Origin: Sphingobacteriaceae bacterium
GTDB taxonomy: Bacteria > Bacteroidota > Bacteroidia > B-17B0 > Aurantibacillaceae
DNA: 64,000 nucleotides
NCBI GenBank assembly: GCA_002319075.1
Contig: NVQB01000001.1
Coordinates: 186,001-250,000 of the forward strand
Direction: 5' to 3'
In this document: piece by piece, positions 867 to 18,903 of the stretch
Position numbering within the stretch: the stretch's first letter is position 1
Layout of the letters: every line of letters starts with the position of its first letter
Notes under the pieces: generated by a model
Databases searched by the model: none
Told to the model about the DNA's origin: nothing
The model's input: only the letters and a program-made list of their open reading frames with translations
Position numbers and translations under genes: made by a program

Positions 867-1481
867 TTACTTTTTAGCCTTTAGATAAAGTTCATTTACT
901 TTATTCCAGTTGATGACATTAAAAAATGCCGCCATATAATCCGGACGTCTGTTTTGATAATTTAAATAATAAGCGTGCTCCCAAACATCCATTCCTAAAA
1001 TCGGAGTTCCTTTACAGTCGCTTCCCACGTCCATAAGAGGATTGTCCTGGTTAGCTGTGCTGCATATTGCAAGTTTTCCATCAGCTTTAACACATAACCA
1101 AGCCCATCCACTACCAAAACGTGTTGCACCAGCCTGAGAAAAATCTGTTTTAAATTTTTCAAACCCACCCAGATCAGTTTCAATTGCTTTAGCTACTTCA
1201 TTAGTTGGAACACCGCCAGCGTTTGGTGCCATAATTTCCCAAAATAATGAGTGATTGTAGTGTCCTCCGCCATTATTTCGTACAACCGGCTCATATTTTG
1301 AAATATTTTTGCAGATTTCTTCTATACTAAGCGCGTCAGCATCGGTGCCTTTAATAGCGTTATTTAAGTTGGTTACATAAGCCTGATGATGTTTATCATG
1401 GTGAATCTCCATGGTTTTAGCATCAATATGTGGTTCAAGCGCATTAAATGCGTGGTTTAATTTTGGTAATTCGAATGCCAT
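867..1481 (-). CDS. sodA: Superoxide dismutase, Mn/Fe family
   Basis: A 204-aa protein with the full Mn/Fe superoxide dismutase pattern; it dismutates superoxide to oxygen and hydrogen peroxide. Metal ligands visible are His27 (MEIHHDKHH), His77 (GGGHYNHS), Asp165 and His169 (DVWEHAYYL). The outer-sphere Gln lies in STANQDNP (Gln145) and Gly occupies the site where Fe enzymes carry Gln, which favours the Mn type, although Bacteroidota enzymes can be cambialistic. There is no signal peptide, so it is cytoplasmic. The ATG is supported by a -7 element TAAATTTG upstream. It is a single-gene unit with its own hairpin terminator. Confidence 0.95.
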
Positions 1482-1542: not shown

Positions 1543-1569
1543 AAAAGCCCCCAAAAATTGGGGGCTTTT
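1543..1569 (-). terminator. Intrinsic terminator, beta-helix cargo copy 1
   Basis: Stem AAAAGCCCCCAA (1543-1554), AAA loop, complement at 1558-1569, with a T-run on the minus strand. The same hairpin with the same flanks follows copies 2 and 3. Confidence 0.92.
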
Positions 1570-1589
1570 AAAGATTTAGAGTTAAATAA

Positions 1590-4500
1590 CTATTGTTTTA
1601 CAACTTTAATTACTTCAGTAGCATTTTCAGATTTAACTTTTACATAATAAACACCATTAGCAAAAGTGCTGATGTTGATGTTAGTATTTAAATCAGAGTT
1701 AGTGTTTGTTAAGATTACTCTTCCTGTTAAATCTACAACTTCAATTGTTTTTACAGAAGTTGAGTTTGATTCTACCACGAAAGAAGCTGCAGTTGGATTT
1801 GGATAAAGTTTAATTCCGCTTGTAGCGTTTACTTTACTTAATCCTGTACATGCATCAACGTTTAACACATAAGTAGTTTTTCCTACACAACCGTTAGCTC
1901 CTGTTCCTGATACTGTATAAACAGTATTAGCTACCGGGTTAACCATGGCTACGTTAGACTGAATAAAACCAGTAGAAGAAGCCCATGCAAATGAAACAGC
2001 TCCGTTACCAGTTAAAGTAGCATACTCACCAACACAAATTTGATTTGAATTAGCAGTACTTGAAACTGTAATAGTTGGATTTGGATTTACAATTACTGAG
2101 TACTCAGTTGAAGTTGAACAACCTGCTGCGTTTGTACCTGTAACTGTGTAAGTTGTGCTTTGACCTGGAGTTACAGTAATTACTGCTCCTGTTGCATTGG
2201 TATTCCATACATAACTTGGTGCACCATTTGCCATTAAAGTAATGTTATCGCCTACACAAACCGCTGGTTTGCTACCAACAACAATTATTGCCGGACTTTG
2301 AAGTACAGTTACATATTGAGCGTTTAATGTTTGTGAACAACCACTTAAAGTGTTTGTTGCTACAACATAATACTGCATGTTTTGGTTAGGATACTCTGTG
2401 ATGTTTCCACCAGTTGCTCCATTGTTCCAGGTATACTCATCTGCTCCTGTAGCTGATAAATCAAGTGGCTGACCATTACAAAGAACATTTGTGCTGGTAG
2501 ATACCGTTACACTTGTAGTGTTTAAAGAACAAGGAATAATAATATCTAAATCATCCCATGACAAGTAATTAGTACCGTAACTACCATTAGTAGTAACTTG
2601 AAGAGATACATAATAAAGTCCTGAAGTTGCAACCACAAATGTATTAGTTAAAGGAGTGTAGATACCACTTGAAGCAGGACCACCGGTTGTAGCGATAGTT
2701 GTTAAACCTGTTTGAGATTGTGTAGTACCATATTTCATTGACAGATCAGTTACGTTAGTATAACCATAAAATTCTGTTTTCCACCATACAGATGCAGAAT
2801 AAGTTACACCTGCAATTAACTGAATACCGTTAGTATAATAAGCATTTGTTCCTGAAACATAAGAAGTAGCAAAAGCTCCAAATTTAGTACCTGTGCGGGC
2901 ACTTCTGTTTTGGTTGGCAGAACCTGTATAAGTAAGTGCTGTACCTCCCTGGTTAGGAGCGAACCATGAACAGTTTGGAAAGTCATTCGGCATATTGATA
3001 CCTTCAAAACCTTCGTGAACCGGAACTACACTAGTGCTTGTTCCTGCGATATTAATAACGTTAGCTACAGTTGCAGTTGTACCAACTAAAGTACAGCTCA
3101 CTGCTACTCCATAATAAGTAGTAGCATTTAAGTTTGGTGTTGTGTAATAAACAGAGTTAGCACCGCTAATAACTGTCCATGGACCTACTGAAGAAGTAGT
3201 AGAAGTTAACCATTGGTAAGTAACTCCTAAATCACTTGTATATCCATTTACTCCGATATCTGCATTTTTATTAGGACAAAGAGCATAAGTTGGAGTAACT
3301 ACTGATATATTAGTTGGAGTAGAAACACAAGTATTGCTTAAAAATTCTAAAGCCCCGATATCAGGATTGGTTTGGCTTCTTGGAGCTCCATCGTGGTCAG
3401 TACCAACATTTAAAGGAGTACCTGTGTTGTTAATGGTATTGTTAGTTGGATGTAAATCTCCCGCTGCAGAGTTAGTGTAAATAGGATCCACATTAAAACC
3501 ATTTGCCTCTACACTATAAGTTTGTAAAGAAGAAAATGAAGAAACGTTTGTTCCGTTTAATTGAGCAAAGTAATTATTTCCACCAAGACCATTAATATAC
3601 CAATCGTTATAATTGAATTGATGCCCTGTAAAAGTTGAGTTGTAGTCCCAGTATCCAATTTTTTGTCCTGAACCACCTCTGGTAATTGTAAAAATATTGT
3701 TTTTTACAGTTAATACTTGTCCACCACTACTGTAGCAGTAGTAAAACATATAAGTATAAGTGTTACCACCTGAAGCGGCAGTATGATCTAAATTGATAGT
3801 GTTATGTGAGATCTCAATACCACCATAGCAATACATAAACATATAAATGTAACCGTTAAACTGAATGTTACGAACGATGTTATTTGTAATTTTATTTGTA
3901 TTAGATGGATTTGGGTTACCACCCACATTGTAAAAGCAAATAAACTGGCCAGTACTTGACTGAGATGCATTCATTACTTTTTCGATAGTATTATTTACAA
4001 ACCTAAGACCTTGAGGGCCGTAACCATAAAACAAATAAGGGTAGTTATTTGTGGTTGAAGTTAAACGGTCAAATAAACAACCATCTACTTTCAGATTTCT
4101 TGAGTAATAAGCACTAATACCATATTGGTACCAATCTGAGATATGGCAATTTTTGAAAGTATTGTTAGTTGTACTTGCTCCACTGTAAGCACCATCAGCA
4201 TAAATACACATGTAGCCACCAATTAGTGTAGTGTTCTCTACCATATTGTAGCTACCAGCATTTCCACCAGACCAGTATGAGCTGTTTGAACTCAAAACAA
4301 ATGCCCCGGTATAATACCCAGTTGCATTTACAGGTACAGAAATCGTACATGTTGTAAAGGCATTGTAATTTGCCTGGTTAGTTAAAAAAACCGGCCATGC
4401 ATAATTGGTGTTAGTACCACGGATCTGAAGATTATTTACATAAAAATAATCAGTACCATCTAACTTCATTGTATGCATTGATCCCGAAGTGGCGTTGTAA

Positions 4501-4796
4501 GTCAATATATACCCGTTACCGTTAATAGTAATAGTATTAGTCGCGCTTGCTCCGGTAATCTGGCTAAAAGTTACCTGTTCGGTGTAAGGACCGGTACCGC
4601 CAACGTTTACCACAAGTGTTCCTGTTAAACCACCTGTATTTAAGGCGGCAGCAAAACTTGTAAAACTAGTGTAGTTAGTTGCGGAAGCCGCAATGGAATT
4701 GTTAATGGTCACTACTCCTGAAAGAGCTCCCATTTTTAGCGTTAGCATGCTTAGAAGCACAATAAACGCCGTGAGTGATTTGTAGTTTTTTTTCAT
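1590..4796 (-). CDS. T9SS-exported right-handed beta-helix surface protein, copy 1
   Basis: A 1068-aa secreted protein. Residues 1-25 form a signal peptide (KSLTAFIVLLSMLTLKMGA). Residues about 28-488 are Asn/Thr/Tyr-rich with recurring rungs such as NNTFKNCHI, NNIFTI and HNTINLDH, typical of a parallel right-handed beta-helix, closing with DLHPTNNTINNTG and NPDIGALEF. Then follow an Ig-like domain (about 491-585), a jelly-roll or MAM-like domain (about 590-756, HEGFEG to YLSWDDLDI), three Ig/PKD-like domains (about 760-990), and a T9SS type A sorting domain (994-1068, LYPNPTAAS to IKVVKQ). It is expected to cross the outer membrane by T9SS and become surface-attached or released. No catalytic residues are recognised; glycan binding or adhesion is a guess. 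First member of a five-gene array. Confidence 0.88.
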   Translation of the reverse strand: MKKNYKSLTAFIVLLSMLTLKMGALSGVVTINNSIAASATNYTSFTSFAAALNTGGLTGTLVVNVGGTGPYTEQVTFSQITGASATNTITINGNGYILTYNATSGSMHTMKLDGTDYFYVNNLQIRGTNTNYAWPVFLTNQANYNAFTTCTISVPVNATGYYTGAFVLSSNSSYWSGGNAGSYNMVENTTLIGGYMCIYADGAYSGASTTNNTFKNCHISDWYQYGISAYYSRNLKVDGCLFDRLTSTTNNYPYLFYGYGPQGLRFVNNTIEKVMNASQSSTGQFICFYNVGGNPNPSNTNKITNNIVRNIQFNGYIYMFMYCYGGIEISHNTINLDHTAASGGNTYTYMFYYCYSSGGQVLTVKNNIFTITRGGSGQKIGYWDYNSTFTGHQFNYNDWYINGLGGNNYFAQLNGTNVSSFSSLQTYSVEANGFNVDPIYTNSAAGDLHPTNNTINNTGTPLNVGTDHDGAPRSQTNPDIGALEFLSNTCVSTPTNISVVTPTYALCPNKNADIGVNGYTSDLGVTYQWLTSTTSSVGPWTVISGANSVYYTTPNLNATTYYGVAVSCTLVGTTATVANVINIAGTSTSVVPVHEGFEGINMPNDFPNCSWFAPNQGGTALTYTGSANQNRSARTGTKFGAFATSYVSGTNAYYTNGIQLIAGVTYSASVWWKTEFYGYTNVTDLSMKYGTTQSQTGLTTIATTGGPASSGIYTPLTNTFVVATSGLYYVSLQVTTNGSYGTNYLSWDDLDIIIPCSLNTTSVTVSTSTNVLCNGQPLDLSATGADEYTWNNGATGGNITEYPNQNMQYYVVATNTLSGCSQTLNAQYVTVLQSPAIIVVGSKPAVCVGDNITLMANGAPSYVWNTNATGAVITVTPGQSTTYTVTGTNAAGCSTSTEYSVIVNPNPTITVSSTANSNQICVGEYATLTGNGAVSFAWASSTGFIQSNVAMVNPVANTVYTVSGTGANGCVGKTTYVLNVDACTGLSKVNATSGIKLYPNPTAASFVVESNSTSVKTIEVVDLTGRVILTNTNSDLNTNINISTFANGVYYVKVKSENATEVIKVVKQ

Positions 4797-4822
4797 TTGG
4801 TGTGTTTTTTTTAGTTATTTAC

Positions 4823-4852
4823 CAAACTTATTAAAAAAAATGTTAAGTCCAA
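4823..4852 (-). promoter_or_regulatory. Promoter of beta-helix cargo copy 1
   Basis: On the minus strand TTG (4850-4852), 19 bp, then TAAGTTTG (4823-4830). This fits the Bacteroidota -33/-7 pattern and is repeated with the same spacing at copies 2 and 3. Confidence 0.75.
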
Positions 4853-4966
4853 CATTTATATTGATAAAAATCAACCAGAAACTCGAATTTAACAATTGAC
4901 TTGTAGTTGCAGTCATTACAAGTTCTACAAGCTAAGGCCTATTTGATCATGACGTAACAAAATAAA

Positions 4967-4993
4967 AAAAGCCCCCAAAAATTGGGGGCTTTT
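4967..4993 (-). terminator. Intrinsic terminator, beta-helix cargo copy 2
   Basis: Same hairpin as at 1543-1569: arms 4967-4978 and 4982-4993 around an AAA loop, with a T-run on the minus strand. Confidence 0.92.
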
Positions 4994-5013
4994 AAAGATT
5001 TAGAGTTTAATAA

Positions 5014-8000
5014 TTATTGTTTTACAACTTTAATTACTTCAGTAGCATTTTCAGATTTAACTTTTACATAATAAACACCATTAGCAAAAGTGCTGATGTT
5101 GATGTTAGTGTTTAAATCAGAGTTAGTGTTTGTTAAGATTACTCTTCCTGTTAAATCTACAACTTCAATTGTTTTTACAGAAGTTGAGTTTGATTCTACC
5201 ACGAAAGAAGCTGCAGTTGGATTTGGATAAAGTTTAATTCCGCTTGTAGCGTTTACTTTACTTAATCCTGTACATGCATCAACGTTTAACACATAAGTAG
5301 TTTTTCCTACACAACCGTTAGCTCCTGTTCCTGATACTGTATAAACAGTATTAGCTACCGGGTTAACCATGGCTACGTTAGACTGAATAAAACCAGTAGA
5401 AGAAGCCCATGCAAATGAAACAGCTCCGTTACCAGTTAAAGTAGCATACTCACCAACACAAATTTGATTTGAATTAGCAGTACTTGAAACTGTAATAGTT
5501 GGATTTGGATTTACAATTACTGAGTACTCAGTTGAAGTTGAACAACCTGCTGCGTTTGTACCTGTAACTGTGTAAGTTGTGCTTTGACCTGGAGTTACAG
5601 TAATTACTGCTCCTGTTGCATTGGTATTCCATACATAACTTGGTGCACCATTTGCCATTAAAGTAATGTTATCGCCTACACAAACCGCTGGTTTGCTACC
5701 AACAACAATTATTGCCGGACTTTGAAGTACAGTTACATATTGAGCGTTTAATGTTTGTGAACAACCACTTAAAGTGTTTGTTGCTACAACATAATACTGC
5801 ATGTTTTGGTTAGGATACTCTGTGATGTTTCCACCAGTTGCTCCATTGTTCCAGGTATACTCATCTGCTCCTGTAGCTGATAAATCAAGTGGCTGACCAT
5901 TACAAAGAACATTTGTGCTGGTAGATACCGTTACACTTGTAGTGTTTAAAGAACAAGGAATAATAATATCTAAATCATCCCATGACAAGTAATTAGTACC
6001 GTAACTACCATTAGTAGTAACTTGAAGAGATACATAATAAAGTCCTGAAGTTGCAACCACAAATGTATTAGTTAAAGGAGTGTAGATACCACTTGAAGCA
6101 GGACCACCGGTTGTAGCGATAGTTGTTAAACCTGTTTGAGATTGTGTAGTACCATATTTCATTGACAGATCAGTTACGTTAGTATAACCATAAAATTCTG
6201 TTTTCCACCATACAGATGCAGAATAAGTTACACCTGCAATTAACTGAATACCGTTAGTATAATAAGCATTTGTTCCTGAAACATAAGAAGTAGCAAAAGC
6301 TCCAAATTTAGTACCTGTGCGGGCACTTCTGTTTTGGTTGGCAGAACCTGTATAAGTAAGTGCTGTACCTCCCTGGTTAGGAGCGAACCATGAACAGTTT
6401 GGAAAGTCATTCGGCATATTGATACCTTCAAAACCTTCGTGAACCGGAACTACACTAGTGCTTGTTCCTGCGATATTAATAACGTTAGCTACAGTTGCAG
6501 TTGTACCAACTAAAGTACAGCTCACTGCTACTCCATAATAAGTAGTAGCATTTAAGTTTGGTGTTGTGTAATAAACAGAGTTAGCACCGCTAATAACTGT
6601 CCATGGACCTACTGAAGAAGTAGTAGAAGTTAACCATTGGTAAGTAACTCCTAAATCACTTGTATATCCATTTACTCCGATATCTGCATTTTTATTAGGA
6701 CAAAGAGCATAAGTTGGAGTAACTACTGATATATTAGTTGGAGTAGAAGCACAAGTATTGCTTAAAAATTCTAAAGCCCCGATATCAGGATTTGATTGAC
6801 TTCTTGGCGCATAATTATGATCAATACCAATGTTTAAAGGAGTACCTGTGTTGTTAATGGTATTGTTAGTTGGATGTAAATCTCCCACTGCAGGGTTCGT
6901 GTAAATAGGATCCACATTAAAACCATTTGCCTCTACACTATAAGTTTGTAAAGAAGAAAATGAAGAAATGTTTGTTCCGTTTAATTGAGCAAAGTCATTA
7001 TTTCCACCAAGACCATTAATATACCAATCATTGTAATCTATAACATTTCCGGTAAAAGTTGGATTGTAATCATAGTATCCGATTTTTTCGCCTGAACCAC
7101 CTCTGGTAATTGTAAAAATATTATTTCTTACATTTAATATTTGTCCACCACTACTGTAGCAATAGTAAAAGATGTAAGTGTCAGTGTTACCACCTGAAGC
7201 TGCTGCATGATCTAAACTGATAGTGTTATGTGATACATCAACACCACCGTAACAATACATAAACATATAGATGGAACCGTTAAACTGGATATCGCGAGCG
7301 ATGTTGTTCGTGATTTTGTTTGGATTAGATGGATTAGGATTACCACCAATATTATAAAAGCAAATAAATTGCCCTGTACTTGACTGAGTAGCATTCATAA
7401 CTTTTTCGATAGTGTTACCTGTAAAATTAAGACCCTGACAAGCATAACCGTACATCAAATAGGGATAGCTATTATTCGTTGCCGTTAAACGGTCAAATAA
7501 ACAACCTTCCATTTTGAGATTTTTTGAATATGGATTGAAAACACCATACTGATACCAATCAGCGATATGGCAATTTTTAAATGTATTGTTAGATGAAGTA
7601 GCTCCACTGTAAGCACCTTCAGCATAAACACACATGTAACCACCAATTAGTGTGGTGTTTTCCACCATATTGTAACTAGCTGAATTTCCACCACCCCAGT
7701 ATGAGTTGTTTGAACTCATAACGAATGCCCCGGTATAATATCCAGTTGCATTTACAGGGCAAGAAATAGTACATGTTGTAAATGCATTGTAATTTGCCTG
7801 GTTAGTTAAAAAAACCGGCCATGCATAATTGGTGTTAGTACCACGGATCTGAAGATTATTTACATAAAAATAATCAGTGCCATCTAACTTCATTGTATGC
7901 ATTGCTCCTGAAGTAGCATTAAAAGTTAGTATGCGACCATTACCGTTTATAGTAATAGTATTAGTAGCACTTGCTCCGGTAATCTGGCTAAAGCTAACCT

Positions 8001-8220
8001 GTTCCGTGTACGAAGCAGAGCCTCCTACGTTTACCACAAGTGTTCCTGTTAAACCACCTGTATTTAACGCGGCGGCAAAACTTGCAAAACTCGTGTAGTT
8101 AGTTGAAGAGGCGGGAATTGAATTGTCAATGGTTATTACTCCCGAAAGAGCTCCCATTTTTAGCGTTAGCATGCTTAGAAGCACAATAAACGCTGTAAGT
8201 GATTTGTAGTTTTTTTTCAT
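5014..8220 (-). CDS. T9SS-exported right-handed beta-helix surface protein, copy 2
   Basis: A 1068-aa protein of the same plan as copy 1: signal peptide, beta-helix head, Ig-like domain, jelly-roll-like domain, three Ig/PKD-like domains, T9SS type A sorting domain. The frame stays open upstream to 8301, but I start at the ATG ending at 8220. That start gives the same signal peptide as the paralogues, and the promoter (8248-8277) lies inside the longer version. From residue 492 onward the protein is identical to copy 1. The head differs at dozens of positions and shares CPVNATG, NPYSKNLKMEGC and YACQGLNFTGN with copy 3. Function unknown beyond surface display. Confidence 0.88.
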   Translation of the reverse strand: MKKNYKSLTAFIVLLSMLTLKMGALSGVITIDNSIPASSTNYTSFASFAAALNTGGLTGTLVVNVGGSASYTEQVSFSQITGASATNTITINGNGRILTFNATSGAMHTMKLDGTDYFYVNNLQIRGTNTNYAWPVFLTNQANYNAFTTCTISCPVNATGYYTGAFVMSSNNSYWGGGNSASYNMVENTTLIGGYMCVYAEGAYSGATSSNNTFKNCHIADWYQYGVFNPYSKNLKMEGCLFDRLTATNNSYPYLMYGYACQGLNFTGNTIEKVMNATQSSTGQFICFYNIGGNPNPSNPNKITNNIARDIQFNGSIYMFMYCYGGVDVSHNTISLDHAAASGGNTDTYIFYYCYSSGGQILNVRNNIFTITRGGSGEKIGYYDYNPTFTGNVIDYNDWYINGLGGNNDFAQLNGTNISSFSSLQTYSVEANGFNVDPIYTNPAVGDLHPTNNTINNTGTPLNIGIDHNYAPRSQSNPDIGALEFLSNTCASTPTNISVVTPTYALCPNKNADIGVNGYTSDLGVTYQWLTSTTSSVGPWTVISGANSVYYTTPNLNATTYYGVAVSCTLVGTTATVANVINIAGTSTSVVPVHEGFEGINMPNDFPNCSWFAPNQGGTALTYTGSANQNRSARTGTKFGAFATSYVSGTNAYYTNGIQLIAGVTYSASVWWKTEFYGYTNVTDLSMKYGTTQSQTGLTTIATTGGPASSGIYTPLTNTFVVATSGLYYVSLQVTTNGSYGTNYLSWDDLDIIIPCSLNTTSVTVSTSTNVLCNGQPLDLSATGADEYTWNNGATGGNITEYPNQNMQYYVVATNTLSGCSQTLNAQYVTVLQSPAIIVVGSKPAVCVGDNITLMANGAPSYVWNTNATGAVITVTPGQSTTYTVTGTNAAGCSTSTEYSVIVNPNPTITVSSTANSNQICVGEYATLTGNGAVSFAWASSTGFIQSNVAMVNPVANTVYTVSGTGANGCVGKTTYVLNVDACTGLSKVNATSGIKLYPNPTAASFVVESNSTSVKTIEVVDLTGRVILTNTNSDLNTNINISTFANGVYYVKVKSENATEVIKVVKQ

Positions 8221-8247
8221 TTTTATTATGTTGGTTAAGTTATTTTT

Positions 8248-8277
8248 CAAACATATTAAAAAAAAACTTTCCTTCAA
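8248..8277 (-). promoter_or_regulatory. Promoter of beta-helix cargo copy 2
   Basis: TTG (8275-8277), 19 bp, TATGTTTG (8248-8255) on the minus strand. Its position rules out the upstream in-frame start at 8301. Confidence 0.75.
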
Positions 8278-8436
8278 AAAATTAACTAAAAATTTAAGCA
8301 TATAATGGCCCTACGCTCTGTTAATTAACTTTTATCTTTTAACTAAAAAGGCCTTAGATTGAAAATAGACAGTTAAAAAATCCCTAATATAAAAAAAATA
8401 AATACGCGTGTTTATCTGCGAAGTATGGGTAATAAA

Positions 8437-8463
8437 AAAAGCCCCCAAAAATTGGGGGCTTTT
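8437..8463 (-). terminator. Intrinsic terminator, beta-helix cargo copy 3
   Basis: Third copy of the GCCCCC hairpin: arms 8437-8448 and 8452-8463, AAA loop, T-run on the minus strand. Confidence 0.92.
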
Positions 8464-8483
8464 AAAGATTTAGAGTTTAATAA

Positions 8484-11400
8484 TTATTGTTTTACAACTT
8501 TAATTACTTCAGTAGCATTTTCAGATTTAACTTTTACATAATAAACACCATTAGCAAAAGTGCTGATGTTGATGTTAGTATTTAAATCAGAGTTAGTGTT
8601 TGTTAAGATTACTCTTCCTGTTAAATCTACAACTTCAATTGTTTTTACAGAAGTTGAGTTTGATTCTACCACGAAAGAAGCTGCAGTTGGATTTGGATAA
8701 AGTTTAATTCCGCTTGTAGCATTTACTTTACTTAATCCTGTACATGCATCAACGTTTAACACATAAGTAGTTTTTCCTACACAACCGTTAGCTCCTGTTC
8801 CTGATACTGTATAAACAGTATTAGCTACCGGGTTAACCATGGCTACGTTAGACTGAATAAAACCAGTAGAAGAAGCCCATGCAAATGAAACAGCTCCGTT
8901 ACCAGTTAAAGTAGCATACTCACCAACACAAATTTGATTTGAATTAGCAGTACTTGAAACTGTAATAGTTGGATTTGGATTTACAATTACTGAGTACTCA
9001 GTTGAAGTTGAACAACCTGCTGCGTTTGTACCTGTAACTGTATAAGTTGTACTTTGACCTGGAGTTACAGTAATTACTGCTCCTGTTGCATTGGTATTCC
9101 ATACATAACTTGGTGCACCATTTGCCATTAAAGTAATGTTATCGCCTACACAAACCGCTGGTTTGCTACCAACAACTACTAAAGCAGGACTAGGAAGTAC
9201 AGTTACATATTGAGCGTTTAATGTTTGTGAACAACCACTTAAAGTGTTTGTTGCTACAACATAATACTGCATGTTTTGGTTAGGATACTCTGTGATGTTT
9301 CCACCAGTTGCTCCATTGTTCCAGGTATACTCATCTGCTCCTGTAGCTGATAAATCAAGTGGCTGACCATTACAAAGAACATTTGTGCTGGTAGATACCG
9401 TTACACTTGTAGTGTTTAAAGAACAAGGAATAATAATATCTAAATCATCCCATGACAAGTAATTAGTACCGTAACTACCGTTAGTAGTAACTTGAAGAGA
9501 TACATAATAAAGCCCTGAAGTTGCAACCACGAATGTATTAGTTAAAGGAGTGTAGATACCACTTGAAGCAGGACCACCGGTTGTAGCGATAGTTGTTAAA
9601 CCTGTTTGAGATTGTGTAGTACCATATTTCATTGACAGATCAGTTACGTTAGTATAACCATTAAAATCTGTTTTCCACCATACAGATGCAGAATAAGTAA
9701 TACCTGCAATTAACTGAATACCGTTAGTGTAATAAGCATTTGTTCCTGAAACATAAGAAGTAGCAAAAGCTCCAAACTTAGTACCTGTGCGGGCACTTCT
9801 GTTTTGGTTGGCAGAACCTGTATAAGTAAGTGCTGTACCTCCCTGGTTAGGAGCGAACCATGAACAGTTTGGAAAGTCATTCGGCATATTGATACCTTCA
9901 AAACCCTCATGAACCGGAACTACACTAGTGCTTGTTCCCGCGATATTAATAACGTTAGCTACAGTTGCAGTTGTACCAACTAAAGTACAGCTCACTGCTA
10001 CTCCATAATAAGTAGTAGCATTTAAGTTTGGTGTTGTGTAATAAACAGAGTTAGCACCGCTAATAACTGTCCATGGACCTACTGAAGAAGTAGTAGAAGT
10101 TAACCATTGGTAAGTAACTCCTAAATCACTTGTATATCCATTTACTCCGATATCTGCATTTTTATTAGGACAAAGAGCATAAGTTGGAGTAACTACTGAT
10201 ATATTAGTTGGAGTAGAAGCACAAGTATTGCTTAAAAATTCTAAAGCCCCGATATCAGGATTTGATTGACTTCTTGGTGCATTATCATGATCAATACCAA
10301 TGTTTAAAGGAGTACCTGTGTTGTTAATGGTATTGTTAGTTGGATGTAAATCTCCAGCTGCAGGATTCGTGTAAATAGGATCCACATTAAAACCATTTGC
10401 CTCTACACTATAAGTTTGTAAAGAAGAAAATGTAGAAATGTTTGTTCCGTTTAATTGAGCAAAGTAATTATTTCCACCAAGACCATTAATATACCAATCG
10501 TTATAATTCAACACATTTCCGGTAAAAGTTGAATTGTAATCATAATATCCAATTTTTTGCCCTGAACCACCTCTGGTAATTGTAAAAATATTATTTCTTA
10601 CATTTAAAATTTGTCCACCATTACTGTAGCAATAGTAAAAGATGTAAGTATAAGTGTTACCACCTGAAGCTGCTGTATGATCTAAATTGATTGTGTTGTG
10701 TGATACCTCAACACCACCATAACAATACATAAACATATAAATGTAACCGTTAAACTGAATATCGCGAACGATATTATTCGTGATTTTATTTGTATTAGAT
10801 GGATTTGGATTACCGCCAATATTATAAAAGCCAATAAACTGCCCTGTACTTGACTGAGTAGCATTCATAACTTTTTCGATAGTGTTACCTGTAAAATTAA
10901 GCCCCTGACAAGCATAACCATACATCAAATAAGGATAGCTATTATTCGTTGCCGTTAAACGGTCAAATAAACAACCTTCCATTTTGAGATTTTTCGAGTA
11001 AGGATTATAAACACCATACTGATACCAATCAGCGATATGGCAATTTTTGAATGTATTGTTAGATGAACTAGCTCCACTGTATGCACCTTCAGCGTAAACA
11101 CACATGTACCCACCAATTAAAGTGGAATTTTGAACCATGTTATAGCTACCTGCATTTCCACCAGACCAGTATGAGCTGTTTGAACTCATAACGAATGCTC
11201 CGGTATAATACCCAGTTGCGTTTACAGGACAAGAAATCGTACAAGTTGTGAATGCATTGTAATTTGCCTGGTTAGTTAAAAAAACAGGCCATGCATAATT
11301 GGTGTTAGTACCACGGATCTGAAGATTATTTACATACAAATAATCAGTACCATCTAACTTCATTGTATGCATTGATCCTGAAGTGGCGTTGTAGGTCAAT

Positions 11401-11690
11401 ATATACCCGTTACCGTTAATAGTAATAGTATTAGTAGCGCTTGCTCCGGTGATCTGACTAAAAGTTACCTGTTCGGTGTAAGGACCGGTACCGCCAACGT
11501 TTACCACAAGTGTTCCTGTTAAACCACCTGTATTTAAGGCGGCAGCAAAACTTGTAAAACTTGTGTAGTTAGTTGCGGAAGCCGCAATGGAATTGTCAAT
11601 GGTCACTACTCCAGAAAGAGCTCCCATTTTTAGCGTTAGCATGCTTAGAAGCACAATAAACGCTGTAAGTGATTTGTAGTTTTTTTTCAT
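8484..11690 (-). CDS. T9SS-exported right-handed beta-helix surface protein, copy 3
   Basis: A 1068-aa paralogue with the same domain order and sorting domain (994-1068). It is a mosaic. Roughly the first 115 residues match copy 1 (TGPYTEQVTF, GYILTYNATSGSMHT), and residues about 150-480 mostly match copy 2 (CPVNATG, MEGCLFDRLTATNNSYPYLM). The stalk is the shared cassette with a few private changes (GITYSASVWWKTDFNG, VLPSPALVVVGS). The start is the ATG ending at 11690, behind the same TTG-N19-TAAGTTTG promoter. All three copies lack the Gln seen after MGA in the related gene at 14533, so their signal-peptide cleavage site differs from the usual A-Q. Confidence 0.88.
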   Translation of the reverse strand: MKKNYKSLTAFIVLLSMLTLKMGALSGVVTIDNSIAASATNYTSFTSFAAALNTGGLTGTLVVNVGGTGPYTEQVTFSQITGASATNTITINGNGYILTYNATSGSMHTMKLDGTDYLYVNNLQIRGTNTNYAWPVFLTNQANYNAFTTCTISCPVNATGYYTGAFVMSSNSSYWSGGNAGSYNMVQNSTLIGGYMCVYAEGAYSGASSSNNTFKNCHIADWYQYGVYNPYSKNLKMEGCLFDRLTATNNSYPYLMYGYACQGLNFTGNTIEKVMNATQSSTGQFIGFYNIGGNPNPSNTNKITNNIVRDIQFNGYIYMFMYCYGGVEVSHNTINLDHTAASGGNTYTYIFYYCYSNGGQILNVRNNIFTITRGGSGQKIGYYDYNSTFTGNVLNYNDWYINGLGGNNYFAQLNGTNISTFSSLQTYSVEANGFNVDPIYTNPAAGDLHPTNNTINNTGTPLNIGIDHDNAPRSQSNPDIGALEFLSNTCASTPTNISVVTPTYALCPNKNADIGVNGYTSDLGVTYQWLTSTTSSVGPWTVISGANSVYYTTPNLNATTYYGVAVSCTLVGTTATVANVINIAGTSTSVVPVHEGFEGINMPNDFPNCSWFAPNQGGTALTYTGSANQNRSARTGTKFGAFATSYVSGTNAYYTNGIQLIAGITYSASVWWKTDFNGYTNVTDLSMKYGTTQSQTGLTTIATTGGPASSGIYTPLTNTFVVATSGLYYVSLQVTTNGSYGTNYLSWDDLDIIIPCSLNTTSVTVSTSTNVLCNGQPLDLSATGADEYTWNNGATGGNITEYPNQNMQYYVVATNTLSGCSQTLNAQYVTVLPSPALVVVGSKPAVCVGDNITLMANGAPSYVWNTNATGAVITVTPGQSTTYTVTGTNAAGCSTSTEYSVIVNPNPTITVSSTANSNQICVGEYATLTGNGAVSFAWASSTGFIQSNVAMVNPVANTVYTVSGTGANGCVGKTTYVLNVDACTGLSKVNATSGIKLYPNPTAASFVVESNSTSVKTIEVVDLTGRVILTNTNSDLNTNINISTFANGVYYVKVKSENATEVIKVVKQ

Positions 11691-11718
11691 TTTTATTATG
11701 TTGGTTTAAGTTATATTC

Positions 11719-11748
11719 CAAACTTATTAAAAAAAAACCTCGGTTCAA
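11719..11748 (-). promoter_or_regulatory. Promoter of beta-helix cargo copy 3
   Basis: TTG (11746-11748), 19 bp, TAAGTTTG (11719-11726) on the minus strand, identical spacing to copies 1 and 2. Confidence 0.75.
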
Positions 11749-12044
11749 CATAACCAAAATAAAAAATAAAAGAAAAATAATTCAGGCACTGTAAATTTAT
11801 TCCCATTAAAAAAAGAAATTTAAATCCCTGATAGCCCGACTTTTAAAAAAAAAATAATTTTAGATCCTTGGTAGTGCCCGAAAATGCAACAAAAAAAACA
11901 CTTTTGACACCTATGTCTTTTTAGAGAACTACGAAAAATTTTCACGTTTTAATACACCGGAAGCTAACCTTTTCGAAAAAAAATATGCTATAAAAACATA
12001 TCAACACATATTTAAAAAAGATAAAAACTTGATAAAAATCAATA
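11749..12044. other. AT-rich intergenic stretch without a gene
   Basis: Between the copy 3 promoter and the terminator of the next gene lie about 300 bases of A-tract-rich DNA with no usable reading frame, no repeat shared with the other spacers and no RNA gene I recognise. It may hold upstream control sites, but I see nothing specific. Confidence 0.5.
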
Positions 12045-12078
12045 AAAAAAGCCTTTCCACTTCTGGAAAGGCTTTTTT
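12045..12078 (-). terminator. Intrinsic terminator of the 786-aa cargo gene
   Basis: A perfect 15-bp stem (AAAAAAGCCTTTCCA at 12045-12059, complement at 12064-12078) with loop CTTC, ending in a T-run on the minus strand. Confidence 0.93.
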
Positions 12079-12094
12079 ACTGCATTCAGACTTT

Positions 12095-14455
12095 TTAATT
12101 CTTTACAACTTTTACAACTTCCGTTGTATTGTCGGATTGAATTTTTACGTAATAAATACCTTTAGACAGATGTGAAATATTAATTTTAAAAGATTTCAAA
12201 GTGCTGGTACCTGAATATACAAGTTTACCCATAACATCTGATACTAAAATTACTTTTTCTTCTCCATTCTGGGTAGAAATGTTTATATCACCTGAAGTTG
12301 GATTAGGATAGATAGTTAAAGCCGATAGTTTATTATCTTTCAAACCCAGGCAAGCACTTACATTCTGTGTTACGCTGCTTCTGTTTATACAGCCGTTAGC
12401 ATCACTACCAGTTACAGTATAAACAGTATTCACAACAGGGTTTATGATAATTGAAGATCCCTGGTAAATACCGCCACCGCTGGAAATCCACTGGTAAGAT
12501 AAGCCGCCGTCTGCCGTCAAGGTTTGAGTTTCACCAGCGCACATCATAGGTTGTTGACCTGAAATACTCACATTTGGCGCACTCAAAACAGTAACGGTTT
12601 GCATGGCCGATGCAGTACACCCAACACCGTTAGTGCCCGTTACTGTATAAACAGTTGTAACACTTGGACTAACAGACATAAATGCTCCTGATGCTCCTCC
12701 TACCCAATTATAAGTAATTGCATTTCCTACAGCAATGAGGTTAGCCGATTTACCTGGGCAAATAACCAAACTGTTGGTTGTAATGTAAACTTCTGGTTGA
12801 GGGTTAACCGTTATCATTTGTGAAACTGTAGTAGTACAACCACTTAAAGAATTAGTTCCCACAACTTCATAAGTAGTGGAATAGGCAGGCATTTCGTTAA
12901 GCGACGCATCCGTTGAGCCTGTACTCCATGTGTAAGAGTCTGCTCCGGAAGCTGTAAGACTCACGGTGCTATTACTACATATTACAGTAGAATTCGTGGC
13001 TATTGCCATACTAGGAGCGTTAAAAGAGCAGGGAATTGTAATGGAAAGATCATCCCATGTTAAATACTGAGCAGATCCAGAACCAGAGGTTGCGCGAATT
13101 GCCACATAATAAAGCCCGGAAGTAGCTACCGTAAAGGTATTGGACAATGACTTGTAAATATTACTTACAGCTGGTCCATTTGAATTAGCTATAGAAATGA
13201 GGCCCGTTGTGCTCTGTGCAGCTCCATACAAAATTGAAAGGTCAGACCAATTGGTATACCCGTAGTATTCTGTTTCATACCAGAGTGCAGCTGAATAGGT
13301 AATACCTGCGTTTAAATAAATGCCATTTGTATAAAAATGATTTACACCAGCAGGACTATAATAAAAAGAAGCAAATTTGGTTCCGGTACGGGCTATTCTT
13401 CCCAAAGTGTTACTGGATGTGTAGGTAAGAGAAGCACTACCAAGGTTAGTGGCTGACCAGGAGCAATTAGGTAACTTGTTTTCACTTGTTATTCCTTCAA
13501 ACCCTTCATAATAAGGAACATTAGAGGTAATTACAGGCGATACAGTTACCATGCCAACGCTGGCCGTTGTTGTGATATTGCTAACCGTGCAGGTAATAAC
13601 AGCCTGAAAATAAGTAGAGGTAGTTAAATTAGGTGAAGCAATAACAGGATTAATACCTGGAATTTGTGTAAAAGGCCCTACAGATGAAGTAGAAGAAGCA
13701 TACCACGCGTAAGTTAAGCCTCCAACCGTATAATTATTTGCCAGGCTTAAATTTGCAGACGAATTCGGACATATCTGGAAAGTGGGTGTAATTATCGAGT
13801 TGGCAGCAGGAGTACCACTACAAGGCGTTGGATTGATCCACTCAAACCGAATGTTAGGACGGGTGGTAGCGGATGTTGAAGTACTTGGATCTGTGCAGTT
13901 AGTAGAAATATCTGCATTTCTCCAGCGTGTTTTAATCGAAGTTCCACTTAGGTTAGTAGTCCAATAAGTAGAATAATTATAAGTATAGGATGAATTATTA
14001 AAACAAGTTTCAATGACAAGGTTATCGGCACCATTCCATATGAATGGAGTCACTAAAGCTGTTTGATTCCAGCCGGTAGTACCAGTAGCAGTTATTGGTG
14101 ATGTTTGAGCCACGAGACCAGTGCTCACCCATCCGCTAAGCAAAGGGTCTGTAGAACTTGTAGTATACACTTTCACATTCCAGCCAACATGATTTGCAGC
14201 CGAATTCGTTGAAAAAATATTAAAACCAATGGTGTTAATTTGGGCTCCGCCAGAAATACCTGCCGCAGAAAGTTCAGCAGCGGTGATAAACATTTGGTGC
14301 CTGGCTCCCCACCAAAAATTTCCATAAGGGGAAGGGAATGATGTGTTGGTATTATAGGTGGTGCCGGTACCAACCGCGCTAAACACTTGAGCGCTCAGGC
14401 TGGCCGTAAAAATGCTGGATAAAAATAAGCAAAGATTTAGTAGTTTTTTTTTCAT
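12095..14455 (-). CDS. T9SS cargo protein: different head on the same stalk architecture
   Basis: A 786-aa secreted protein with a signal peptide (LFLSSIFTASLSAQ) and a type A sorting domain (about 710-786, LTIYPNPTSGD to VVKVVKN). The first ~205 residues are not a beta-helix. They form a compact domain with GNFWWGARHQMFITAAEL and FIWNGADNLVIETCFNN, a pattern I have seen in Bacteroidota secreted proteins but cannot name. From about residue 210 the order matches the neighbouring paralogues: Ig-like, jelly-roll or MAM-like (YEGFEG to YLTWDDLSITIPC), three Ig/PKD-like domains, sorting domain. The stalk sequence is clearly related to that of the neighbours but much diverged. Only ~77 bases separate it from the upstream gene, with a terminator between; I see no convincing promoter. 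Confidence 0.85.
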   Translation of the reverse strand: MKKKLLNLCLFLSSIFTASLSAQVFSAVGTGTTYNTNTSFPSPYGNFWWGARHQMFITAAELSAAGISGGAQINTIGFNIFSTNSAANHVGWNVKVYTTSSTDPLLSGWVSTGLVAQTSPITATGTTGWNQTALVTPFIWNGADNLVIETCFNNSSYTYNYSTYWTTNLSGTSIKTRWRNADISTNCTDPSTSTSATTRPNIRFEWINPTPCSGTPAANSIITPTFQICPNSSANLSLANNYTVGGLTYAWYASSTSSVGPFTQIPGINPVIASPNLTTSTYFQAVITCTVSNITTTASVGMVTVSPVITSNVPYYEGFEGITSENKLPNCSWSATNLGSASLTYTSSNTLGRIARTGTKFASFYYSPAGVNHFYTNGIYLNAGITYSAALWYETEYYGYTNWSDLSILYGAAQSTTGLISIANSNGPAVSNIYKSLSNTFTVATSGLYYVAIRATSGSGSAQYLTWDDLSITIPCSFNAPSMAIATNSTVICSNSTVSLTASGADSYTWSTGSTDASLNEMPAYSTTYEVVGTNSLSGCTTTVSQMITVNPQPEVYITTNSLVICPGKSANLIAVGNAITYNWVGGASGAFMSVSPSVTTVYTVTGTNGVGCTASAMQTVTVLSAPNVSISGQQPMMCAGETQTLTADGGLSYQWISSGGGIYQGSSIIINPVVNTVYTVTGSDANGCINRSSVTQNVSACLGLKDNKLSALTIYPNPTSGDINISTQNGEEKVILVSDVMGKLVYSGTSTLKSFKINISHLSKGIYYVKIQSDNTTEVVKVVKN

Positions 14456-14487
14456 TGACTTTAATTTAGTTAGTTTAAAATTGGTCT

Positions 14488-14520
14488 AAAAAAAGAAACC
14501 ATGCCGTTTGGCATGGTTTC
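14488..14520 (-). terminator. Intrinsic terminator of the 1069-aa beta-helix cargo gene
   Basis: Arms GAAACCATGCC (14495-14505) and its complement (14510-14520) around GTTT, followed on the minus strand by seven T (14488-14494). Confidence 0.9.
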
Positions 14521-14532
14521 TAAGGGGAAAGA

Positions 14533-17500
14533 TTAGTGTTTTACTATCTTAACAACTTCCGAAGAGGAGTTGGATTGTATTTTGACATAATAAATTCCAT
14601 TTGCAAAATTTGAAAGATCAATTTTAGTAGACTCTTTCGAACTTGAATTTGAAGAAAGTACACGGCCAGTTAAATCTATTACAGTGATAATTTTATCAGA
14701 ATTATCAGGTAAAGTAACCGTTAGTTCGCTTGAAGCTGGATTAGGGTAAACACTTAAACCTTTTAAGCCGTTAACTTTTAAACCTAAACACTGACTCACA
14801 TTTTGAGTAATAGCTGCTTTACTAGTGCAACCATTAGCATCGGTACCTGTTACACTGTAAACAGTAGATACAAGAGGGCTGATAACGATGGATGCACCTT
14901 GAGAGATAGCACCTGTTCCACCTGAAACCCATTGATAAGAAACACCACCACCTGCAGTTAAAGTTTGTGGCTCACCAGCACACATTTCATTAGGCTGAGA
15001 AGTTGAAACCGTAATAACCGGAGCATTTTTTACTGTAATCATAACAGAAGCTTCTGTATCGCATCCATAATTGTTAGTACCTGTAACACTGTAATTAGTG
15101 GTAACTGTTGGACTCACAGAAATATTTGGACTTGTGTTGTTGTTACTCCATACGTAACTGATAGCATTACCAATCGCATTTAGATTAGCAACTTGTCCTG
15201 CACAAATACTCATTGAATTTGCAGTAATAAACACTGAAGGAGCTGGATTTACATTAACCATTTGAGTGATAGTACTTGTACAACCACTTAATGCATTCGT
15301 AGACCAAAGTGTGTAAGCTATGTTGCTAGCTGGTGTCTCACTGATACTGTTCGAGTTTGATCCATTGCTCCATGTATAAGTATCTGCTCCACTAGCTGTA
15401 GATGTAAACTCATCACCTGCACAAATAGTTGTTGTATTTGTGTTTAATGTAACAGTTGGTTGGTTTAAAGCACAAGGAATAGTAATTGATAAATCATCCC
15501 AGCTTAAATAGTATGCGTAGCTACCAGATGCTGAAGTTGCTCTAACATCGATATAATACATGCCAGAAGTAGCTACAGTAAATGTATTCGACAATTGTTT
15601 GTATACATTACTGATGGCAGGGCCACCTGTACTAGCAATAGAAACTGCTCCTGTTGTAGTTTGTGTAGTACTGTAAAGAATAGAAAGATCTGTCCAGTTG
15701 TTGTATCCATAATATTCTGTTTGATACCATACAGAAGCTGAATAAGTAACACCTGCATTTAAATAGATACCGTTAGTGTAAACATGGGCTTGTCCGTAAG
15801 GCATATAATTAAATACGCCAAATTTTGTGCCTGTACGAGGGTTTCTTCCCTGTGTATTTGAAGATGTATAAGTGTTAAGAGACGGACCTGTACCTGGTGC
15901 ATACCAAGAACAATTAGGAAGTTCATCTGCTTTGTTAATTCCTTCAAAACTTTCAAAATACGGAACTACACTTGTAGTAGTAGCTGCAATATTAATAACG
16001 TTTGCCACAGTTGCAGTAGTTCCCACAAGAGTACAGCTAACTGCTACTCCATAGAAGGTAGTTGCATTTAAATTTGGTGTAGTGTAAAGCACTGTGTTAG
16101 CACCGCTTACAACTGTCCACGGACCAACTGAAGAACTTGTAGAACTTAACCATTGGTAAGTAACTCCAAGATCACTTGTATACCCATTTACGTTGATATT
16201 CGCACTGCTGCCAGGGCAAATTGCGTAGGTTGGTGTATTTACAGAAATATTTGTAGGGGTAGCAGCACAAACGTTGCTTAAAAATTCATAAGCCCCAACA
16301 TCCGGAGTTTGTTGACTTCTAGGAGCACCAAGAACATCCATTGCAACACCTACCGGCGCGCCTGTGTTGTTCATAGTTGCATTTGTAGGATGTAAATCTC
16401 CTGTTGCAAGACTCACATACTGCGGATCTAAATTTGATCCATTAGCATCAACACCTTGTGTTGTCCAAGTTCCCATTGAATTTGCCTGAGCCGTTACATA
16501 TCCTATGTAGTTATTTCCGCCAAGACTATTTACGTAATAATTGTTATTGTTTACTACTACTCCTGTTAAGGATGTTCCACCATTGTAGAAACCGTATTTA
16601 GTACCAGTTCCACCTCTTGTAATTGAAATATTATTATTCATTACAGACGCATACATACCATTACCACCGTAGATGTAATAAAATCCATAAGTAGAACCAC
16701 CAGTTGCTGCAGTATGATCAAAAGATAAAGTATTGTGTAAGAATTTTGTGTCAGAATAATAAGAATAATAGAACGCATAAATTGTTCCGTTAAAATTGAT
16801 ATCTCTGAAAACGTTGTTTGTAACACGGCAAGGATTCACATCCTGAGCCATTGGGTTATAAGACCCCACATAAGCTAAACCATATAAAGTTCCAGTGTAG
16901 GCGGTATTTCCGTTATATAATTTTTCATAAATGTTACCGTCAAGTACCATCCCTTGAGATCCGTAACCATAAAGTAAATAAGTAGTTGTGAAAGTTGTTC
17001 TGGTTAAACGGTCAATTTTACACCCTTTAATAGTGAGGTTTTTAGAGTAATAGCAATAAACGCCATAGTAGTAAAAATCAGTCATGTAACAATTTAAGAA
17101 ACTGTTATCATGTGTGTATGCACCTGAACTAGCTCCGTAGTGATAAATACCGTAATAACCACCCACCAAAGTAGAAGTTTTAACCGTATTGTTATTTCCC
17201 GGATCTCCGCAGCAGCTGATACCTGTAGCCGAAGAGCTAAAAGCAAAAGGACATTGCGAAGAACTTGTGCCGTTTGCAGGAGCAGAGAACGTACAAGCCG
17301 TAAAATTGTTGTAGTTCGCCTGATTAGTTAATAAGGCAATAATTGCGTAAGTAGTATTTGTACCCATCATGTGCAGATTGTTCACATTAAGGTAATCTGT
17401 ACCATTCAACAATAAAGTATGCGGCGCAGTAGAAGTCGAGTTAAACGTCAAAATACTGTTGTTACCATTTATTGTAATGGTATTTGTAGCCGAGGCACCT

Positions 17501-17742
17501 GTAATCTGATTAAAAGTTACTTGTTCGGTATAGGTTCCGTTGGTAACGTTCACAGTAAGAGGGCCATTGATTCCACCTGAATTCAAGGTAGTAGCCAGAC
17601 TCGTAAAACTTGTGTAATTGGTAGCAGATGCAGGGGCAGCGGCGTTAATAGTAACAATGCCGGAGATTTGCGCTCCCATCTTCAACGTGATCATGCTTAG
17701 TAGCACAATAAACGTGGTGACTAATTGGTAACTTTTTTTCAT
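14533..17742 (-). CDS. T9SS-exported right-handed beta-helix surface protein, diverged paralogue
   Basis: A 1069-aa protein of the same plan as the triplicated genes: signal peptide (VTTFIVLLSMITLKMGAQ, with the usual A-Q cleavage), beta-helix head to about residue 490 (DLHPTNATMNNTGAP, TPDVGAYEF), Ig-like, jelly-roll-like (FESFEG to YLSWDDLSITIPC), three Ig/PKD-like domains, and a type A sorting domain (LSVYPNPASSELTV to VVKIVKH). Ig-1 is close to the triplicated copies, whereas the region from the jelly-roll domain on is closer to the 12095 gene (the AQP/SQP...MCAGE...QTLTA and TDANGC motifs), so domain blocks look exchanged. It is the most upstream gene of the array and may be nearest the ancestral form. 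Ligand unknown. Confidence 0.87.
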   Translation of the reverse strand: MKKSYQLVTTFIVLLSMITLKMGAQISGIVTINAAAPASATNYTSFTSLATTLNSGGINGPLTVNVTNGTYTEQVTFNQITGASATNTITINGNNSILTFNSTSTAPHTLLLNGTDYLNVNNLHMMGTNTTYAIIALLTNQANYNNFTACTFSAPANGTSSSQCPFAFSSSATGISCCGDPGNNNTVKTSTLVGGYYGIYHYGASSGAYTHDNSFLNCYMTDFYYYGVYCYYSKNLTIKGCKIDRLTRTTFTTTYLLYGYGSQGMVLDGNIYEKLYNGNTAYTGTLYGLAYVGSYNPMAQDVNPCRVTNNVFRDINFNGTIYAFYYSYYSDTKFLHNTLSFDHTAATGGSTYGFYYIYGGNGMYASVMNNNISITRGGTGTKYGFYNGGTSLTGVVVNNNNYYVNSLGGNNYIGYVTAQANSMGTWTTQGVDANGSNLDPQYVSLATGDLHPTNATMNNTGAPVGVAMDVLGAPRSQQTPDVGAYEFLSNVCAATPTNISVNTPTYAICPGSSANINVNGYTSDLGVTYQWLSSTSSSVGPWTVVSGANTVLYTTPNLNATTFYGVAVSCTLVGTTATVANVINIAATTTSVVPYFESFEGINKADELPNCSWYAPGTGPSLNTYTSSNTQGRNPRTGTKFGVFNYMPYGQAHVYTNGIYLNAGVTYSASVWYQTEYYGYNNWTDLSILYSTTQTTTGAVSIASTGGPAISNVYKQLSNTFTVATSGMYYIDVRATSASGSYAYYLSWDDLSITIPCALNQPTVTLNTNTTTICAGDEFTSTASGADTYTWSNGSNSNSISETPASNIAYTLWSTNALSGCTSTITQMVNVNPAPSVFITANSMSICAGQVANLNAIGNAISYVWSNNNTSPNISVSPTVTTNYSVTGTNNYGCDTEASVMITVKNAPVITVSTSQPNEMCAGEPQTLTAGGGVSYQWVSGGTGAISQGASIVISPLVSTVYSVTGTDANGCTSKAAITQNVSQCLGLKVNGLKGLSVYPNPASSELTVTLPDNSDKIITVIDLTGRVLSSNSSSKESTKIDLSNFANGIYYVKIQSNSSSEVVKIVKH

Positions 17743-17770
17743 AGGTAATTGTGTTAGATTGTTATAAAAA

Positions 17771-17803
17771 CAAACATAATAAAAAAGATTAAAAGTTTAA
17801 CAA
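17771..17803 (-). promoter_or_regulatory. Possible promoter of the 1069-aa cargo gene
   Basis: TATGTTTG (17771-17778) on the minus strand is a good -7 element 28 bases before the ATG. The nearest TTG (17801-17803) is 22 bp away, slightly long. Confidence 0.5.
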
Positions 17804-17988: not shown

Positions 17989-18903
17989 CTAAAAGTAGAG
18001 GTTCAAGCGCAGGGAAGCCGAAAGTCCTCCTAAAAGATTGGTATTATCCGTATCAATTCCCACATGATTAGAGGCGCCCCCATCAATAGTTGTACTTTTT
18101 ACAGAGGCTCCCGTAGAACCTTGTATATTCGATTGTCCAATGGACTCAAGTTTCGTTTCAGACCTTCCGGAAGTTGAAAATGCGGCACCCCATCCAAACT
18201 CTCCGCCTATACTCATCTTTGGCAGTACAAAATATTCTGCCCCAACAAATACACGCGCGCCAATCGTTAATGCCAGGCCGTTTTTCCTTTCTGTTACACG
18301 CGCCGATCCTTGCACACCTTGTATCCTTGGAACGGTGTCTACATTGTTTGCGTTACCGAAAATGGGGCTAGACATGGCGTCTCCCGCAGGATCAATAACC
18401 AATTGAGGAGAAGAGGAAACGTTTAATTTGTTTCCGTATGTAAATTTATCGTTCGTAGTGGAAAGATAAACACCGCCTTCAACACCATAAACGCCTTGCA
18501 AACGCGTTGCTCCACGACGTTTTTCAATTCCAAAACTTAATCCGATGGATGTAGATGCTCTTCTCCAACTATTTTCTTTAGAAGGAACAGCCGCAGGATA
18601 AGCTATAATGGTGCTTGATGCCGCTGCGCGGTCTGTTACCATGGCTTTAGTAGTCCAACTGTTAACCCCTATTCTAACTCCTATTCTGTAGGCTGTAGAC
18701 GCATCCTTAAAATATTTACCAGTGATAGCTTGTGAAGTAGAAACAAAATCAAAACTGGCATTTTTTATCAGGCGTGTGGCATCTAAGCCTATGCTCCAGT
18801 CTTTGGCTTGAGGCAAGATAGCCTCCCCATTTTTGGAGGTTAAGTCTTGTGCAAAAGTAGCACCACTAATACATATGGATAAGGCAAGAAGTAAATTTTT
18901 CAT
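17989..18903 (-). CDS. Outer-membrane beta-barrel-like protein
   Basis: A 304-aa protein with a signal peptide (LLLALSICISGATFAQ) and alternating hydrophobic/polar strands (RIGVRIGVNSW, SIGLSFGIEKRRG, GLALTIGARVFVGAEYF, KMSIGGEFGWGAAFS) ending in LSASLRLNLYF. A terminal aromatic after alternating strands is typical of outer-membrane barrels recognised by the Bam complex. No family is recognised, and pore or structural roles are both possible. A -7 element TAAATTTG lies at 18924-18931. It stands alone between the cargo array and pcm. Confidence 0.7.
   Translation of the reverse strand: MKNLLLALSICISGATFAQDLTSKNGEAILPQAKDWSIGLDATRLIKNASFDFVSTSQAITGKYFKDASTAYRIGVRIGVNSWTTKAMVTDRAAASSTIIAYPAAVPSKENSWRRASTSIGLSFGIEKRRGATRLQGVYGVEGGVYLSTTNDKFTYGNKLNVSSSPQLVIDPAGDAMSSPIFGNANNVDTVPRIQGVQGSARVTERKNGLALTIGARVFVGAEYFVLPKMSIGGEFGWGAAFSTSGRSETKLESIGQSNIQGSTGASVKSTTIDGGASNHVGIDTDNTNLLGGLSASLRLNLYF

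Follow-up and report, generated by a model that had tools for sequence, protein, structure and literature searches.

What process could leave neighbouring genes with practically the same DNA in their 3' parts beneath 5' parts that differ at many synonymous sites? The question is raised by five genes in a 64-kb window (the whole stretch of DNA that was analysed, C1:186001-250000) of a 5.65-Mb host genome, here called G000. An earlier note on this stretch had read the array as what one would look for in a surface-diversification system, with changing heads on constant stalks.

Layout of the array

The five open reading frames lie side by side on the minus strand, span 1590-17742 and all encode a C-terminal T9SS type A sorting domain (TIGR04183, 52.0-54.3 bits against a cut-off of 23), which bears out their earlier description as adjoining same-strand T9SS type A cargo genes. 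The N-termini of the proteins look hydrophobic when the sequence is read, and T9SS machinery is represented in the host genome by a SprA match of 2339 bits and two Peptidase_C25 genes. The features are given in order of coordinates.

867-1481, minus strand: downstream marker gene, presumably superoxide-dismutase-like, as named from its sequence; in 40 of 40 genus genomes
1543-1569, minus strand: terminator hairpin of g1, with identical copies after g2 and g3
1543-3320, minus strand: homogenised tract of g1 (stalk and terminator)
1590-4796, minus strand: g1, T9SS type A cargo; head 3321-4796 (beta-helix), stalk 1590-3320
4823-4830, minus strand: TANNTTTG before g1
4967-4993, minus strand: terminator hairpin of g2, identical to that of g1
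4967-6744, minus strand: homogenised tract of g2
5014-8220, minus strand: g2, architecture as g1; head 6745-8220, stalk 5014-6744
8248-8255, minus strand: TANNTTTG before g2
8437-8463, minus strand: terminator hairpin of g3, identical to that of g1
8437-10214, minus strand: homogenised tract of g3, dS 0.04 to g1 and g2
8484-11690, minus strand: g3, architecture as g1; head 10215-11690, stalk 8484-10214
11719-11726, minus strand: TANNTTTG before g3
12045-12078, minus strand: terminator hairpin of g4
12095-14455, minus strand: g4, short unrelated head 13814-14455 (type A), stalk 12095-13813
14494-14521, minus strand: terminator hairpin of g5
14533-17742, minus strand: g5, older helix-headed paralogue; head 16261-17742, stalk 14533-16260
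17771-17778, minus strand: TANNTTTG before g5
17989-18903, minus strand: upstream marker gene, 304 aa, without a Pfam match; at a guess, an outer-membrane protein

The start of g2 was taken at the homologous ATG (8220); the longest listed open reading frame begins at 8301. The g4 head is quite different from the others, as had been claimed: it is short and unrelated, and has a relative in G013 (L081). A head-only helix search (E 1e-15) matched the four other window genes. Judged by its divergence from g1-g3 (about 55% identity in head and stalk alike, dS >1), g5 is a far older paralogue. The constancy that the earlier note had ascribed to the stalk holds among g1-g3 and is lost beyond them, the g4 stalk being 46-54% identical to the other array stalks and that of g5 about 55%. 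An alignment of 27 helix-headed genes from across the genus gives a mean column identity of 0.45 in the stalk and 0.41 in the head; genus-wide, the stalk is thus hardly more conserved than the head and is not constant by nature.

A strong terminator-like hairpin stands 3' of each of the five genes, and TANNTTTG, which we take to be the Bacteroidota -7 box, lies 34-36 nt 5' of four of the starts (g1, g2, g3 and g5); a search of the 110 nt upstream of g4 gave none. The suggestion that every unit has its own terminator and promoter therefore stands for the terminators and, as far as this element goes, for four of the promoters. Of 59 such genes in other genus genomes, 18 have TANNTTTG in the 100 nt upstream, compared with 103 of 2000 pieces drawn at random from like loci. 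A sigma-70 scan of the sequence was uninformative (49 sites against 64.6 in shuffles), and a two-part Bacteroidota-like promoter pattern occurred at chance level in the window (6 against 6.28).

Some further observations concern the host genome. A g5 query gave 239 matches within it: proteins that combine related Ig-like repeats with sorting domains are very numerous here. Outside the array, the window holds another large T9SS cargo gene (47240-51847, minus strand, 1535 aa), whose Por_Secre_tail match is barely over the cut-off. Identical matches at a constant offset lie near both ends of the main contig (C1, ~8.2-10.4 kb and 5,632-5,634 kb), and this contig is probably an unjoined circular chromosome with overlapping ends.

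Divergence of heads and stalks

Synonymous and non-synonymous divergence among g1-g3 was calculated by the Nei-Gojobori method over 492 head codons and 576 aligned stalk codons. For g1/g2, dS was 0.422 in the head and 0.002 in the stalk, where a single synonymous site differs; the corresponding values were 0.319 and 0.038 for g1/g3, and 0.298 and 0.040 for g2/g3. Head dN for the three pairs was 0.083, 0.058 and 0.036, and the split of synonymous differences between head and stalk had binomial p values of 1e-36, 1e-16 and 4e-15, respectively. The near-identical stalks under differing heads that the earlier note described are thus confirmed (stalk dS 0.002-0.040, head dS 0.30-0.42), and the uniform divergence that would have told against the note did not occur: the synonymous comparison it proposed comes out as its reading would predict. 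A 7- to 200-fold synonymous difference inside one gene requires recombination, as selection on the stalk protein would not suffice.

Alignment of whole units places the start of the near-identical tract near the head-stalk junction and its end just beyond the terminator. The spacers 5' of g1-g3 are mostly unalignable, except for the last ~60 nt before the start, which are alike. The heads are 85-92% identical in pairs and vary at 79 of 492 positions; that of g3 is a mosaic, its first ~186 codons being closer to g1 and the rest closer to g2 (0 of 2000 shuffles).

We consider it probable that the C-terminal stalks of this tandem T9SS type A array evolve in concert by ectopic gene conversion, perhaps together with unequal crossing-over, and that the N-terminal heads keep older differences. 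Stalk DNA would be copied from gene to gene, presumably by RecA-type recombination, while the heads would retain what they had accumulated earlier. Homology between the units ends where the tract does, shortly beyond the terminator. This reading draws on what is seen in the sequence, namely the synonymous contrast, the tract limits and the mosaic g3 head, together with the decoupling of head and stalk elsewhere and the conflicting histories of the two parts described below.

The genus-wide picture and rival explanations

Of the 40 genus genomes (G000 counted), 22 have the 264-residue stalk module and 15 the helix head. For 15 of the stalk-bearing 22, regions were retrieved that together contain 67 genes, 62 of which were used; L068_12, L090_2385, L095_1099, L095_2618 and L098_1107, with heads absent or very short, were left out of the tree, and stalks longer than 700 residues (G020:C99) were trimmed to 450. 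Among the matches listed in a genome-contig scan, 80 of 307 confirmed relatives were kept. The relatives among these matches carry labels such as Bacteroidia and Sphingobacteriaceae and are MAGs, so that bench work would need a surrogate host.

By coordinates, 11 of the 22 genomes with the stalk have a stalk gene next to one marker or both (G000, G001, G009, G010, G011, G013, G017, G018, G020, G023 and G060). The 304-aa marker of G060 lies 42 kb away and a methyltransferase-like gene takes its place; G036, where a weaker relative of this marker lies ~5 kb from the stalk gene on the opposite strand, was left out of the 11. The slot in G006, G007, G019, G034 and G061 holds one to five other genes, some bearing a C or F head, which we call cargo-like because of weak stalk matches and the form of their C-termini. 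No reference-set match was found beside the dismutase-like gene in G002, G005, G014, G015, G016, G022, G033 and G035, where some stretches hit contig ends. Related species differ at this locus in the number of genes and in their heads, and head and stalk act as modules of their own; to this extent the reading of the earlier note is supported.

At least seven head types sit on one stalk family across the genus. Among the 62 genes, 30 are of type H, eight of F, six each of B and C, four each of D and E and two of A, with two single types besides; types A to F rest on an HMM check for helix heads and on sequence reading, and were assigned partly by eye. One type C example has a GEVED domain (PF20009, over the cut-off), and one of type E resembles CUB below the Pfam cut-off. 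A clustering of heads by BLAST was discarded, as it merged helix with short heads, probably an effect of low-complexity stretches and signal peptides. The junction of head and stalk is a Cys-x-x-x-Pro motif in 59 of the 62 genes, the exceptions being two H genes and one F gene.

On the stalk tree (62 rows), head types need 21 changes, against a minimum of 7 and a mean of 30.4 with shuffled labels. AU tests, which used a quick tree and groups picked after it was seen, reject the grouping of all stalks of one head type into a single clade, for types B, C, D and E alike (p 4e-6 to 5e-49). The histories of head and stalk conflict. Sister stalks (SH-aLRT 100) occur beneath different heads side by side in G009:C15, G018:C21, G020:C55 and G020:C99. 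Measured by plain identity at the species level, with one genome per species, 17 of the 36 comparable genes have a stalk nearer to that of a neighbour with another head than to that of a like-headed gene in another genome, the rest of the 62 having no different-headed neighbour or no same-headed relative elsewhere. This applies to 15 of 20 genes with A-E heads and 2 of 16 with H or F heads, which suggests that genes with short heads exchange stalks readily with one another and little with helix or F genes. The F stalks are largely grouped together on the tree, and four G004/G005 genes retain their own stalks. As a separate observation, two adjoining genes of G020:C99 (L078:241-8364), 42 nt apart, carry unrelated heads on a common stalk of ~1,020 residues (80% identical).

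Helix genes of other genomes are less uniform. G001 has three, up to 2.7 Mb apart, with stalk dS of 0.28-0.47 and head dS of 1.38-1.45. Two of these loci, L202:222-6451 (1.28 Mb) and L181:397-6623 (2.52 Mb), have three downstream cargo-like genes in common, in reversed order with orientation kept (dS 0.05, 0.07 and 0.33; two are 98% identical), which speaks for patchy exchange between distant sites. The heads of a G011 pair are 48% identical and the stalks 70%. In the helix pairs of G009 and G010, the heads are more alike in protein and dS is similar in both parts; here selection alone explains the pattern, and the head is the more constrained part.

A broader proposal, which we regard as unlikely, is that the slot between both markers is a genus-wide surface-protein exchange locus, where recombination at Cys-x-x-x-Pro would reassort at least seven unrelated heads on a common T9SS stalk and let each species display a combination of its own, which might serve against phages or suit different polysaccharides. 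Head swapping might also account for the array itself, newly duplicated stalks having gained different heads and promoters through the conserved junction, from paralogues or other strains. The frequency of the junction motif, the mostly unalignable upstream spacers and the presence of C and F heads on other stalks in G009, G019, G034 and G061 all favor this; however, the similarity of the g1-g3 heads and of the ~60 nt before their starts makes them look like old copies of each other, and in G001 dS declines gradually along the stalk rather than at a single point, so that we think swapping quite improbable as the origin of g1-g3. It is very unlikely that assembly or polishing merged three truly different stalks. 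Long identical tracts do trouble assemblers, and several draft contigs of relatives stop inside such genes, but a less extreme decoupling is present in G001 on one contig, with stalk divergence of ~9-14%.

Two further explanations would make the heads the active part, and we give each of them hardly any weight. Recent tandem duplication followed by fast head evolution, through diversifying selection or targeted mutation, would fit the number of variable head positions, but it is largely refuted by the synonymous sites, which are themselves 7- to 200-fold more divergent in the head, and by a head dN/dS of ~0.12-0.20 among g1-g3. Averaged dN/dS gives no sign of diversifying selection on heads in these sequences; in sister-species pairs of G004 and G005 (types B, D and H) it is 0.06, 0.15 and 0.19 in heads and 0.17, 0.11 and 0.11 in stalks. 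A diversity-generating retroelement has a reverse transcriptase beside its variable gene; none lies beside the array, and the sole RVT_1 match in the host genome is at C1:5,380,727. A silent-cassette or invertible switch for antigenic variation would suit repeated surface genes and the mosaic g3 head. Silent-cassette variation of the vlsE/pilE type relies on silent partial copies of the variable part, but in G000 a head-only query at E 1e-15, which shorter or weaker copies would escape, matched just the four intact window genes with helix heads and no silent partial copies. Inverted repeats near the starts, terminators aside, are weak and A+T-rich (e.g. 27 nt at 74%, 24 nt at 83% and 11 nt at 91%), so promoter inversion is unsupported. 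Rhs/CDI-type proteins, which have variable toxin tips, were dropped as a model since the variable part of the array is N-terminal; the five window proteins (E 1) and ten relatives (E 0.01), when scanned against Pfam and NCBIfam, showed no recognisable toxin domain. Concerted stalks under older heads remain our preferred reading. The visible pattern is stalk homogenisation with reassortment of heads and stalks over species time, with no sign in these sequences of an active head-diversifying mechanism; the earlier proposal of such a system is not upheld, given the low head dN/dS, the lack of extra head copies in the head-only search of G000 and the distant reverse transcriptase.

Predicted function and known systems

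A model of g1 from 12 sequences (mean pLDDT 72.3, pTM 0.47) shows the head as a right-handed parallel beta-helix at residues ~26-435. VIA-align matched this helix to the RbmB polysaccharide lyase (Z 26.8, rmsd 3.2, 308 aligned), AlgE4 (Z 26.4, rmsd 3.0, 319 aligned), the phage tailspike 6f7k (Z 25.6, rmsd 3.3, 326 aligned) and the adhesin PfbA (Z 23.5, rmsd 3.2, 328 aligned). The fold is alike at an identity of just 10-14%, and such likeness does not by itself establish what a protein does; going by the fold, the helix heads may bind or cleave polysaccharide. Seven of the best eight Foldseek matches of the full-length g1 model are fragments of GhpA, the grappling hook protein A of Aureispira (PDB 9flw, 9flp, 9fly and others; E 2.7e-15 to 2.4e-10), at low TM-scores of 0.15-0.45, and most likely reflect Ig-like stalk repeats, not a common function. 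A search of a viral structure library gave low-TM matches only, many with Ig-like names, and one scan of viral contigs confirmed no relative. For the g4 head, the model is poor (pLDDT 57.2, five sequences) and matched nothing in the PDB at E 0.001, and no fold is claimed.

The array proteins would be exported via Sec and the T9SS, cleaved at the sorting domain and anchored at the surface. Their likely role is in surface adhesion or in acting on carbohydrates; a single type of secretion-and-anchor stalk would carry the various heads, which are kept by purifying selection.

The closest known case is that of homA/homB and babA/babB of Helicobacter pylori. According to the available part of PMC2795765, the 3' segment of homA/homB is concerted within a genome and the 5' segment divergent, Ka/Ks is below 1 and gene conversion is proposed; babA/babB are called alike there, with reference to Pride and Blaser 2002. 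The earlier statement that no system of this form had been described was therefore too strong. As far as that part of the source goes, these genes resemble g1-g3 in their homogenised 3' part, divergent 5' part and Ka/Ks below 1, but they are two-gene outer-membrane families and not T9SS cargo, their common part is not a secretion stalk, and no single locus is described at which one stalk bears a range of unrelated heads. The homA/homB evidence in that portion comes from comparison between strains, whereas ours lies between paralogues and species.

The T9SS cargo of Porphyromonas gingivalis (gingipains and HagA) undergoes domain rearrangement and allelic exchange, as set out in the accessible portion of PMC5266723. 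It is thus like the array in comprising T9SS surface proteins diversified by rearrangement and exchange; it differs in consisting of allelic strain variants with repeated adhesin domains, and a tandem array of different heads on a constant stalk is not described in that portion. No study of T9SS cargo with concerted evolution or gene conversion of this form was found in the open-licence literature.

The array would extend to T9SS cargo the concerted evolution that is known for adhesin-like paralogues of H. pylori. It also suggests how a single working module for secretion and anchoring could let Bacteroidota keep many different surface domains. Head turnover between strains could be measured simply at such a slot, where the heads vary and the flanking markers are fixed. 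On this comparison, the array combines the H. pylori and P. gingivalis patterns and adds to them a recurring locus at which one stalk bears several unrelated heads.
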